The position numbers and the translations under genes are program-made. From Candidatus Altimarinota bacterium (GTDB taxonomy: Bacteria; Patescibacteriota; Gracilibacteria; JAHISY01), in NCBI GenBank assembly GCA_028690585.1, contig JAQVAZ010000005.1, positions 1 to 46,136 on the forward strand: a stretch of 46,136 nt of DNA, read 5' to 3'. Under the pieces are notes generated by a model that ran no database searches, was not told the origin of the DNA, and saw only the letters and a list, made by a program, of their open reading frames with translations. Each line of letters starts with the position of its first letter. The stretch's first letter is position 1. This document shows positions 1-3,252 of the stretch, in pieces.

Positions 1-333
1 ACCGTATGAAGTGCCAAGCCCGATGCGACAACTATAAGCATCGTTGATAAAAACTCTCTCAAAGATCGGGCTGATGTAATTGAAAATGAGATGATGAATA
101 ATCCTATCGCGAAAATCACCTGCAAAAATTTCGCGCTTCACTGGTTTGAAAGAGATGAAGCAAATACTGCGGGAAATCTGATATTTACGTTGGAGAATAT
201 CTTCATACAACCGAAAAAGCCGCGATTCAAAATTCAATTCAAACCGAAGCGCGTTGATGGTTTTGCGTTTATTTTTGCGCGCGCAATAATATGCGCGAAA
301 AAGATCAGTCAGCAGCTGATTAGCATCTAGCAT
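1..333 (-). CDS. DGR reverse transcriptase, N-terminal part (runs off the window)
   Basis: Seen: an open frame on the minus strand from ATG at 333 to the window edge, 111 residues with no stop. It reads MLDANQLLTDLFRAYY, then a basic stretch (ARKNKRKTINALRFE), then KPVKREIFAGDFRDRIIHHL and NYISPIFERVFINDAYSCR. The block KREIFAGDFRDRIIHH followed by PIFE..FI.D.YSCR.G.GT is the conserved early reverse transcriptase region of group II intron-like and DGR enzymes. Known: DGR reverse transcriptases copy the template RNA into adenine-mutagenised cDNA together with Avd. The catalytic YxDD box and the DGR-typical SQ motif would lie beyond the edge and cannot be checked. Context (TR and avd upstream on the same strand) makes the DGR assignment firm. 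The start is preceded by an in-frame TAG at 346-348. No strong ribosome binding site is seen; a GGAG lies about 17 nt upstream. Confidence 0.93.
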   Translation of the reverse strand, partial: MLDANQLLTDLFRAYYCARKNKRKTINALRFELNFESRLFRLYEDILQRKYQISRSICFISFKPVKREIFAGDFRDRIIHHLIFNYISPIFERVFINDAYSCRIGLGTSYG

Positions 334-417
334 ACAAGCAGGCTACATCATCTCCATGAAAGCAATGTGAATCTACTTCGGTAAACAACTACTCGCGGGA
401 AAGTATAATCAGTCCTA

Positions 418-602
418 ATGAGGCAGCGAATAGAAAAGCCGTTGGCCTTGGCGTTTGGGTTGCGGTTTACCGTAGTGTTGCTGGAATTCAGGTTGCGATT
501 CCAAGCTGTAGATGCATCAGCCTGAGTAGAAGACCAATAGTTCGTGTTTGTGCCACGATTGTTGTAAGTGCTATCAGTATTTCGGTTGCCAGTGAGAATG
601 CT
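418..602 (-). other. DGR template repeat (TR)
   Basis: This non-coding 185-bp copy of the 3' end of the FISUMP gene aligns without gaps to 1193-1377 (offset 775). I counted 16 mismatches, at 443, 455, 461, 466, 467, 478, 487, 488, 499, 548, 549, 563, 574, 582, 587 and 602. Every one is a T on the + strand, that is an A on the coding strand. The copy holds 56 such T positions of 185, so restriction of all changes to them by chance is very unlikely. Read in the VR frame, TR is rich in AAC/AAT codons, as DGR templates are. It has no start codon context of its own, and identity to VR ends abruptly on both sides. It lies between avd and the reverse transcriptase, as in the Bordetella phage DGR. 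Confidence 0.95.
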
Positions 603-764
603 GCAACAATAATCATTGAGCTATTTGCAAAGTGCTAAAGCACACAATGCAAACGAGAGAAAATTCTCTCAATACCTCATGAAAAATCATGAGAAGATTA
701 TGGGACTAATTGTGGCTCACTCGCTTCTACCTTAGCAAATCGCGATTCTGGCCAATGCGTAATG
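603..764 (-). other. Structured spacer between avd and TR
   Basis: The 162-nt non-coding stretch between the avd stop and the TR contains three small hairpin-capable palindromes. These are 624-653 (TTTGCA..GTGC TAAA GCAC..TGCAAA), 655-670 (GAGAGA/TCTCTC with a 4-nt loop) and 676-693 (CTCATGA/TCATGAG with a 4-nt loop). None has the long T-run of a rho-independent terminator, so read-through from avd into TR and the reverse transcriptase is likely. They may be part of the folded template RNA. Confidence 0.5.
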
Positions 765-1118
765 TCAAGTATGCATATACGATTTTTTTTGCCACGCGAG
801 TAGTTGTTTGCTGACAGATTCAATTTTTAGATTGAGAAACGCAAACTTTTCTAAACTGATTTGTCTCAAATCACGCAATAGCCTGAGAAAAAGCCGAATC
901 ACTTCGATATTTTCACGGGCAGTTTGAAGCAATACCCGACGATTACTTACATTGCTATTGGCTTTGTAGATATTGGTAATCATCTCGACAACTTCCTTTT
1001 TGATACTTTCACCAAGCGTGTATTTGTATTCACGCGAAAAATCTTTGGTAAAGCGGAATAATTCGAGAAGTAGTTGGTAGCTTTCGTAATAAACGGGAAG
1101 ATTATCGTAGGTTGCCAT
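765..1118 (-). CDS. avd: DGR accessory variability determinant (Avd), four-helix bundle protein
   Basis: 117 residues starting MATYDNLPVYYESYQLLLEL and built of amphipathic helices. Helical segments run at about 5-35, 36-65, 68-90 and 92-112. The length and the opening D-N-L-P-V-Y-x-x-S-Y pattern are typical of the S23/Avd four-helix bundle family. Known: Avd forms a basic barrel-shaped pentamer that binds the DGR reverse transcriptase and template RNA and is required for mutagenic cDNA synthesis. The protein is rich in Lys and Arg as expected. It sits 67 nt downstream of the target gene and 162 nt upstream of TR, which gives the classical order target-avd-TR-RT. The gene ends in TGA, showing that TGA is a stop here. 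One arm of the inverted repeat around TR lies in its last codons. A related family without DGR function exists, but context decides. Confidence 0.92.
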   Translation of the reverse strand: MATYDNLPVYYESYQLLLELFRFTKDFSREYKYTLGESIKKEVVEMITNIYKANSNVSNRRVLLQTARENIEVIRLFLRLLRDLRQISLEKFAFLNLKIESVSKQLLAWQKKSYMHT

Positions 1119-1185
1119 TTTGTTTTGAGATTAGCAAAAGCCTGTTTTCACGGGGAAAGAGTCGAAGTGTCAAAGAGACGAATTT

Positions 1186-2226
1186 TTAGTCCATGAGGCA
1201 GCGAATAGAAAAGCCGTAGGCCTTGGCGTGTGGGTAGCGGCGTACCGTAGTGGTGCTGGAACCCAGGTTGCGAGTCCAAGCTGTAGATGCATCAGCCTGA
1301 GTAGAAGACCAATAGTTCGTGTAGGTGCCACGATTGTAGTAAGTGCTACCAGTATTCCGGTAGCCAGTGAGAATGCCTTCGAAACCAGAAGTGCCACCGA
1401 CTTTTAGTTTCGTGCCTGCGGGATCACAATCCCAAGCATTGCTACGATTTGCATCACAAGTGCCAGTCGCGAGATAACTATCGAGAGTGTGTTGCTGCGC
1501 ATCAGTCGGGATATGCCAACCTGTCGGGCAGATACCTTGGCTGCCTGCGGTGGTGGAGTAACCCATCGCTTCATCCCAAGTATAGAGTCCACCTTCGGAG
1601 TCGCAAGTTGCGGAGGTATTGTCGTAGCACCATTTCTCGACTGTGGAGTTATTGGTTGGCATGGTAGCAGCGCTGGCTAGCATGCTGCCTTTCTTGATAT
1701 TTTGTTTTAGCCAGCATTGAGTGCCGATTTGCACTGTGTTGTAAGTGTAGCCACCATCGGTGACTGTATCAGTGCCACAAGTGAAAGGCGCGATACTCGC
1801 GATGAGTTTCCAAGTTGTGCCATTGCAACCTTCGTAAATTTTGGTTGTAGTGTTGTAGCGAATCAAACCGTCTTGGCTGCTACCGCAAGTTGTCGAGTAG
1901 GCTGGTTTTACACTACTGATGTTTGTGAGCTGACTTCCATCTACTGCAGGCAGTTTTGCATTGGCATCTAGCTGGATTACATTGGTAGCAGCAGTGCCGA
2001 CATTCTTGGTAGCAGCAGTGCCGAAAGTTCCAAGATAAGTAACTAAATCATTCCAGTCTGAGGCTAGAATCATATCTCCAGTAGCTTTGGTGGTATTCCA
2101 CGCAGCGAAAACGCTGGTGATAGCTACAGTCAAGACTATTCCTAGCGCAACCCAAAAAGCTTTCCTCGGGATATCGAGAAGAAAGTGAAGGAAGCGTTTG
2201 AGAAGAAGTAAAAGTTTTTGCTGCAT
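1186..2226 (-). CDS. DGR target: membrane-anchored FISUMP-domain variable surface protein
   Basis: 346 residues. A basic N-terminus is followed by one hydrophobic segment at about 23-43 (KAFWVALGIVLTVAITSVFA), probably an uncleaved anchor or a signal peptide, and the remainder is outside the cell. Residues about 85-145 resemble tail-fibre-like linker pieces (LDANAKLPAVDGSQLTNI, then DGLIRYNTTTKIYEGCNGTTW). Residues about 150-345 form a FISUMP (Fibrobacter succinogenes major paralogous) domain: GGYTYNTVQIGTQCWLKQN, then GLYTWDEAM, ICPTGWHIPTD, YWSSTQ and the closing GFSIRCL. Residues 284-345 are the variable repeat. Its changed codons encode Y, G, T, R and H where the template has mainly Asn. 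Inferred role: a diversified binding or adhesion protein on the cell surface. Ligand unknown. The short gap to avd suggests co-transcription. Confidence 0.93.
   Translation of the reverse strand: MQQKLLLLLKRFLHFLLDIPRKAFWVALGIVLTVAITSVFAAWNTTKATGDMILASDWNDLVTYLGTFGTAATKNVGTAATNVIQLDANAKLPAVDGSQLTNISSVKPAYSTTCGSSQDGLIRYNTTTKIYEGCNGTTWKLIASIAPFTCGTDTVTDGGYTYNTVQIGTQCWLKQNIKKGSMLASAATMPTNNSTVEKWCYDNTSATCDSEGGLYTWDEAMGYSTTAGSQGICPTGWHIPTDAQQHTLDSYLATGTCDANRSNAWDCDPAGTKLKVGGTSGFEGILTGYRNTGSTYYNRGTYTNYWSSTQADASTAWTRNLGSSTTTVRRYPHAKAYGFSIRCLMD
1193..1377 (-). other. DGR variable repeat (VR)
   Basis: This is the last 185 bp of the FISUMP gene apart from its final codon and stop. It matches TR except at 16 template-adenine positions. 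Relative to TR, ten Asn codons have become Tyr (5), Thr (2), Gly, Arg and His. There is also one Asp to Gly, one Ser to Gly (edge of the repeat) and two silent changes. The 25 bp at the 3' end (1193-1217) are identical to TR, consistent with a site where mutagenic homing initiates. That assignment is inference by analogy. Confidence 0.94.
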
Positions 2227-2236
2227 ACGGAAAGAA

Positions 2237-2434
<198 letters not shown>

Positions 2435-2440
2435 GCAGCT

Positions 2441-2469
2441 AGTTTAGCAAAGGAAGTTAGCTTTGGTAA
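2441..2469 (-). promoter_or_regulatory. Candidate promoter of the DGR target gene
   Basis: On the minus strand TTACCA and TAAACT are separated by 17 nt, with TGC directly before the -10 (extended -10 TGCTAAACT). Transcription would begin near 2434, leaving a leader of about 200 nt that contains the microsatellite. Confidence 0.45.
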
Positions 2470-2700
2470 AACTTTTTTGTTTGAGTGAAGCGAAAATCCC
2501 CTCTTTGGAAAAGAGGGGTTGGGGAGATTTTATAAACAGTTTTAGCAAGAAAGATTTTTTATAAGCAAAGTTGGAATAGCTTAAAAAATTCCTGCAACAA
2601 ATCCCCCTAATTCCGCCTTGCGGAATTCTCCCCCTTTATCAAAGGGGGAATAATAATTCCTTTTTATAATTTCATTCTCTTGAGTTGGAAGATTAAAAAA
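2470..2700. repeat. Intergenic palindromic repeats between the DGR and the rpsG terminator
   Basis: There is no gene in this stretch. It holds three hairpins: CCCCTCTT/AAGAGGGG (2498-2518) followed by GGGGAGATTT, AATTCCG/CGGAATT (2609-2627), and CCCCCTTT/AAAGGGGG (2630-2648). The first resembles the CCCTCTTT..GGGGAGATTT block at 12988-13045, so this is a dispersed element of the genome. Confidence 0.7.
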
Positions 2701-2778: not shown

Positions 2779-3252
2779 TTAGTATTTTGCCAAATGCGCG
2801 AAGGCTTTGTTGGCAGCTGCCATCTTGTGCACATCTTCTTTTTTCTTGACTGCAGCACCTTCACCTTTGAATGAATCAAGAATGATATCAGCGAGACGCA
2901 ACGCCATCTTCTTACCCTTAGCTTTGCGAGCTGCTTCGAGAATCCAGCGCATAGAGAGAATGCGTTGGCGGTTTGGAGAAACTTCGGTTGGCACTTGATA
3001 GACACCACCACCCACGCGTTTTGGTTTTACTTCGATACTTGGCGCAGCATTTTCGAGTGCAGTTTTGAAAGTAATCATTGGATCTTTTTCTCCGCGTTTG
3101 ACTAATTCTGCCAACATCTCAGCAAAAATATTGCGGGCTACAGATTTCTTACCACCCAGCATGATGGAGTTGATGAATTTTTCTTGGAGCGGATCAGCGC
3201 CTGAAAGCAGCTGAGCTTTGAAAGGAATACCGTTGTGATAAGTGCGTTTCAT
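2779..3252 (-). CDS. rpsG: 30S ribosomal protein S7
   Basis: 157 residues, normal length. Recognisable family blocks include DPLQEKFINSIMLGGKKSVAR near the N-terminus, ENAAPSIEVKPKRVGGGVYQVPTEV in the middle, and RWILEAARKAKGKKMALRLADI. S7 binds the 3' major domain of 16S rRNA, nucleates assembly of the small-subunit head, and contacts E-site tRNA. It is the last gene of the rpoB-rpoC-rpsL-rpsG operon, 74 nt after rpsL. fusA and tuf, which often follow, are absent. A terminator follows directly. The start ATG matches the usual N-terminus. Confidence 0.97.
   Translation of the reverse strand: MKRTYHNGIPFKAQLLSGADPLQEKFINSIMLGGKKSVARNIFAEMLAELVKRGEKDPMITFKTALENAAPSIEVKPKRVGGGVYQVPTEVSPNRQRILSMRWILEAARKAKGKKMALRLADIILDSFKGEGAAVKKKEDVHKMAAANKAFAHLAKY

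Follow-up and report, generated by a model that had tools for sequence, protein, structure and literature searches.

For a single phage element it has been worked out in detail how diversity-generating retroelements (DGRs) select an RNA and where its copying begins and ends. DGRs in CPR genomes are already a known kind of element (PMC8144416). The stretch of DNA analysed here (46,136 nucleotides from a Candidatus Altimarinota bacterium; hereafter the window) begins with such a DGR. On the minus strand of positions 1-2226 we have found, in order, a target gene carrying the variable repeat (VR), avd, the template repeat (TR) and the start of the reverse transcriptase (RT) gene. An earlier note on this DNA had read this one-strand order from the sequence, and coordinates and family matches bear it out. 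The features are as follows.

1-333, minus strand: DGR RT gene, 5' part, first 111 codons (phrog_1423, 8ub7_A, tree)
418-601, minus strand: TR (15/15 mismatches to the VR at adenines)
765-1118, minus strand: avd, DGR accessory protein, 117 aa (PF22296, phrog_3206, NF033474)
1186-2226, minus strand: DGR target gene, 346 aa (PF09603, 1.8e-28; TIGR02145, 1.7e-29)
1193-1376, minus strand: VR, at the 3' end of the target gene
2779-3252, minus strand: rpsG, right-side neighbour of the insertion site (ORF translation, same-family comparison)

The TR and VR are 184 nt each and 92% identical, and no other direct repeat of 20 nt or more was found in window positions 1-2700. All 15 mismatches fall at the 55 TR adenines and 0 elsewhere (hypergeometric p=3e-9), with 5 changes to T, 5 to G and 5 to C. 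The 3' end of the repeat (IMH region) is invariant, with 0 changes within the final 25 nt. The TR holds 14 Asn codons (10 AAC, 4 AAT), in which an A-to-N change never creates a stop, and the VR is altered in 13 codons, 11 of them with a changed residue. A hairpin or cruciform after the VR is common in DGRs, but not universal; directly 3' of the VR at the window locus none was found (z=-0.06).

A-biased TR/VR pairs were detectable in 57/81 related loci, the window being counted among the 81. A plain duplication of the gene end, with gene conversion and no DGR, would fit a TR that encodes the same C-terminal domain as the target. This reading is contradicted by the A-only substitutions, by the adjoining Avd and RT and by the same pattern in those 57 loci, and we regard its probability as negligible. 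The A-only mismatches, together with the Avd and RT family matches, support the earlier proposal of a DGR in a CPR genome. The assignment of this genome to Patescibacteria (CPR) is drawn from its same-class relatives, of which some read TGA as sense.

The avd product matched bAvd PF22296 (1.7e-13), phrog_3206, "Avd protein of DGR" (7e-21), and NF033474 (2.8e-13, under that model's curated cut-off). The start of the RT matched the PHROG reverse transcriptase phrog_1423 (1e-28) and, by phmmer (1.1e-8), chain 8ub7_A, deposited as "Reverse transcriptase", which we take to be the BPP-1 DGR enzyme. These N-terminal 111 residues match DGR RTs, in agreement with the earlier identification. The window starts at base 1 of contig C22, with the window edge being the contig edge that cuts the RT. 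Hence, the rest of the RT does lie outside the window, as had been said, and the leftward extension that the earlier note had proposed is impossible. The remaining two thirds of the gene were absent from the 98.7%-complete assembly when searched with Pfam RVT_1 and a full relative RT, which ruled out a location on another contig. RT motifs 3-5 of the window copy lie beyond the assembled part; across the related loci YVDD was found in 69/81 and IGNLTSQ in 69/81, both being present in nearly all full-length relative RTs.

When the 111 residues were placed on a tree with three group II intron RTs as the root, the window N-terminus nested inside the DGR RTs, which is where the earlier note had expected it. 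Its nearest relatives were L033 (Staskawiczbacteria), L034 and L035, and Ignavibacteria and further CPR lay close by; with an alignment of only 111 columns, many forks stayed unresolved. One DGR clade has been described as Patescibacteria-restricted (PMC8144416), whereas the group that holds the window RT is mixed and includes CPR, Ignavibacteria and Bacteroidota. Two same-class genomes (L020 and L021) also have DGR RTs, which were placed elsewhere on the tree.

The target protein has a hydrophobic N-terminus, a shared N-terminal module and a C-terminal FISUMP domain (Fib_succ_major), with the VR located at the C-terminal end, inside this domain. The AlphaFold2 model of the FISUMP domain had a mean pLDDT of 93, and the PDB structure that matched it best was the C-terminal domain of Legionella Lcl (E=0.033), C-type lectins matching only at E>0.4. 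Since C-type lectins match the model weakly, a C-type-lectin-like fold is plausible rather than established. The target is a putative surface protein, presumably displayed on the cell. Its N-terminal module is also present on contigs C48 and C37 with other C-termini, and proteins with this module make up a modular family of putative surface proteins. Besides the target, two proteins with this module and different C-terminal parts are those at L030 1-993 and L031 3-1169. DGRs have been reported to be enriched in CPR, with the VR at the C-terminus of modular targets (PMC8144416), and the FISUMP/Fib_succ_major domain to be a DGR target in human microbiomes (PMC4159848). The target described here belongs to the same domain family in a different host and, unlike those targets, is accompanied by a second, diverged FISUMP copy on contig C3, within a protein whose length is 1,496 aa or more.

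This second copy (L029, 3-4490) is not C-terminal in its protein, which runs off the contig. Compared with the TR, it is altered at 26/53 A sites and 31/117 non-A sites (Fisher p=0.005). Such an enrichment of changes at TR-adenine sites is what past or parallel targeting would leave, and the C3 copy is therefore a possible former (abandoned) or parallel/remote target of the DGR, as judged from its sequence. We have rejected it as a second live VR, given that 31/117 non-A sites differ from the TR as well. No further TR besides 418-601 was found.

The C3 copy bears on the possibility that the DGR is decayed, with the TR and VR as relics and an RT already broken, hence the contig end there. Its resemblance to an abandoned target and the incomplete RT in the assembly would agree with such a history. 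However, there are 0 non-adenine TR/VR mismatches in 184 nt, no stop interrupts the frames of Avd and the RT N-terminus, and the RNA pairing described below is retained. Neutral decay is disfavoured because it would have brought changes of other kinds, and we consider this explanation improbable. A DGR that may be active at present is the reading that we have carried forward.

On the same strand, rpsG, rpsL, rpoC and rpoB come next (named from ORF translations), and the earlier placement directly downstream of rpoBC-rpsLG was right. Three same-family genomes (G001, G002 and G004) show the empty site, with rpsG followed by ~50-110 bp and then a membrane-protein gene. In the window genome the corresponding membrane-protein gene is on contig C24, whose start falls inside that gene. 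Among the C24 genes past it are a lipoprotein gene and serS, which are found downstream in G002 as well. Based on this gene order shared with same-family genomes, contigs C22 and C24 most likely border a single gap, with the DGR between rpsG and the membrane-protein gene. A search for an RT match in five same-family genomes found none. The DGR was either inserted here or lost by the relatives, and the same-family sample fits both.

We have made some further observations on this region and genome. A 32-nt GA microsatellite (window 2365-2396) lies upstream of the target gene, and L022 has a GA run directly 5' of its RT. MITE/REP-like palindromes (CCCCCT...AAAGGGGG) occur at window ~2481-2530 and 2590-2660; the L021 RT contains a seemingly in-frame repeat resembling them (SKGGVPRSGGGF, CKGGEPRSGGGF). 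Window ORFs longer than 250 aa hardly ever end in TGA (14 TAA, 7 TAG, 1 TGA), and several same-class relatives read TGA as sense. The lineage is possibly close to TGA reassignment. An alternative code for the window genome was rejected and the standard code kept because the genome encodes release factor 2.

The part that may be new here is the RNA around the TR, the earlier note having contained no RNA structure. The RNA features are the following.

605-705, minus strand: cloverleaf (four-way junction) RNA (R1 match, covariation, own MFE fold)
703-711, minus strand: closing helix, 5' strand, AAUUAGUCC, abutting the cloverleaf
407-415, minus strand: closing helix, 3' strand, GGACUGAUU, 3-11 nt past the TR
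787-821, minus strand: outer helix, 5' arm, in the 3' coding end of avd (inverted repeat; compensatory changes vs L034)
368-402, minus strand: outer helix, 3' arm, in the TR-RT spacer (inverted repeat; compensatory changes vs L034)

The avd-TR interval measures ~180 nt across loci (IQR 165-205). In 42 loci it was more stable than its shuffles (median z -2.87, against -0.22 for the avd coding control; Wilcoxon 1.8e-7). When 13 sequences, selected by eye for complementary ends, were folded individually, nearly all formed the same four-way junction, and MFE folding of the window sequence alone yielded it too. The resulting cloverleaf is ~100 nt long and its 3' end stops 3 nt short of the TR in the window.

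We have built a covariance model (R1) on a seven-sequence seed from relatives, with the structure taken from single-sequence folds of those seven. In the seed, 89.5% of cells were paired and 20/35 pairs showed double changes, a result equalled by 0/500 shuffles. The support for the closing stem (P1) is partly by construction, since P1 guided the choice of the seed; the other three helices had no part in that selection. Sliding the structure along the alignment lowered the paired cells to 38-48%, a comparison in which the seed structure is favoured because it was derived from folds of the same seven sequences.

Run on the 46-kb window, whose sequence was left out of R1 but had been inspected by eye before R1 was built, the model gave exactly one match (605-705, minus strand, E=3.6e-8). 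It gave 24 matches at E<=0.5 in 86 loci and 0 matches in 71 mostly viral loci. A refined model (R2) was built from 21 R1 matches. In the 21-sequence alignment, 181 cells showed double changes against 58 in shuffles, these pair counts (A8) deriving from an alignment fitted to the model. R2 matched about 35/81 related cellular loci at E<=0.02, window included, and also the code-25 relative L021 (2.9e-5). On viral loci it produced two weak matches, both directly before a TR, almost all phage relatives being without the cloverleaf. Over 380 Patescibacteria genomes, under stricter filters (E<=0.01), it returned the window's own match alone. No Rfam 15 covariance model matched the avd-TR-RT region at E<=5.

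The position of the cloverleaf is as constrained as its fold. Among the loci with a scored TR (n=29; L060, among the 35, left out), the distance from cloverleaf 3' end to TR start was between -5 and +8 nt in 28/29, with a median of 3, the window value also being 3. The seed sequences had been taken immediately 5' of the TR, but the search of the non-seed loci made no use of where the TR lies. In L036 avd is far from the element and in L088 it comes after the RT, and in both the cloverleaf stays at the TR, which indicates that it is part of the TR RNA and not of the avd message. Conserved structure, compensatory changes and a fixed place 5' of the TR mark the pre-TR cloverleaf as an RNA family that may be new. 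As a separate observation, a Peregrinibacteria contig (L091, 7406-7507, minus strand) carries a cloverleaf RNA and an avd oriented opposite to the RT, perhaps a second DGR.

Two long-range helices accompany the cloverleaf. In the closing helix of the window, the cloverleaf 5' flank (AAUUAGUCC) pairs with the TR 3' edge (GGACUGAUU). Over 29 loci the mean best pairing was 13.4, compared with 11.6 (sd 0.42) in partner permutations, of which 0/500 reached the observed value; the signal is weak in about half of these loci. The outer helix joins avd to the TR-RT spacer, and both the window and L034 sequences fold with it. Between the two, three pairs are altered on both sides, by our reading at avd third codon positions. 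The outer helix gives a strong signal in the window, in L034 and in a minority of other loci, and a weak one or none in most, and we have rejected it as a universal DGR feature on its weak overall signal. In L035, arrays of short AGTTGCAAG-type repeats, seemingly mutually complementary, were seen on both sides of the TR.

We have compared these structures with the Bordetella phage BPP-1 element (mtd-avd-TR-brt), which has the gene order, A-specific TR/VR divergence, Avd and RT found here. As here, the avd 3' end and the TR-RT spacer flank its template (PMC12875486). In BPP-1, however, avd runs directly up to the TR, and the RNA described as structured is the 144-nt spacer on the 3' side of the TR, where a conserved structure of the Bordetella element has been reported (PMC8867640). 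In the window element the spacer measures 84 nt, and ~180 nt of structured RNA precede the TR on its 5' side. BPP-1 has a hairpin after its VR, whereas none was found after the window VR, and the BPP-1 avd-spacer helix reaches only 5-8 pairs in folds. Neither R1 nor R2 matched BPP-1.

In BPP-1, reverse transcription is terminated by a motif that lies beside the TR in the 3' end of avd, and it is the spacer that recruits RT-Avd and serves in priming (PMC12875486). Because of this analogy, we propose that cDNA synthesis stops at the cloverleaf and starts at the closing helix, the two structures thereby setting the cDNA ends. Avd, the RT and the TR RNA would all come from one minus-strand transcript. 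The RNA fold would hold the TR between the 5' cloverleaf and the closing helix just past the TR, with the outer helix joining the 3' coding end of avd to the spacer. RT-Avd would bind the folded RNA, start the cDNA at the TR 3' edge, beside the closing helix, misincorporate opposite TR adenines and stop at the cloverleaf, at the TR 5' edge. The cDNA would then home to and replace the VR, with up to ~20 residues of the target's C-terminal domain being randomised. Taken as a whole, an rpsG-adjacent DGR with an RNA-clamped TR, cDNA bounded by RNA structures and VR replacement is the account that we consider probable.

Alternatively, the DGR is real and the cloverleaf does not bound the cDNA, serving for example to process or stabilise the avd-TR transcript or to recruit Avd only. 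The cloverleaf that stays at the TR although avd is far off (L036) or after the RT (L088) is compatible with such a role. However, the 3-nt spacing is tighter than processing or recruitment alone would need, and the BPP-1 motif beside the TR does stop reverse transcription. We see this alternative as a minor but serious possibility, and favour a cloverleaf that bounds the cDNA.

In retron msr-msd, a structured RNA with complementary flanks encloses the reverse-transcribed segment. The window RNA likewise encloses the copied segment between complementary flanks, by analogy only: the window DGR has a different RT family, no evidence of a branched guanosine and a product that homes into a gene.

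In the DGR literature that we searched, to which the main DGR RNA-structure and CPR-DGR papers did not belong, we found no report of a 5' cloverleaf, and the chances that it is new are about even. We are equally divided on the broader claim that a large, mostly cellular DGR lineage carries an undescribed four-way-junction RNA ~3 nt 5' of the TR plus a closing helix, which together would clamp the TR and set both cDNA ends in an RNA architecture unlike that of Bordetella. The cloverleaf is common to DGRs of CPR bacteria, Bacteroidota, Ignavibacteria, Cloacimonadota and others. Its covariance model locates the template 5' end within a few bases when the VR is unassembled. The cloverleaf might also yield components for programming DGR mutagenesis beyond the Bordetella system. 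At the template 5' edge of these DGRs, the cloverleaf is a concrete, mutable RNA part with a directly testable role.
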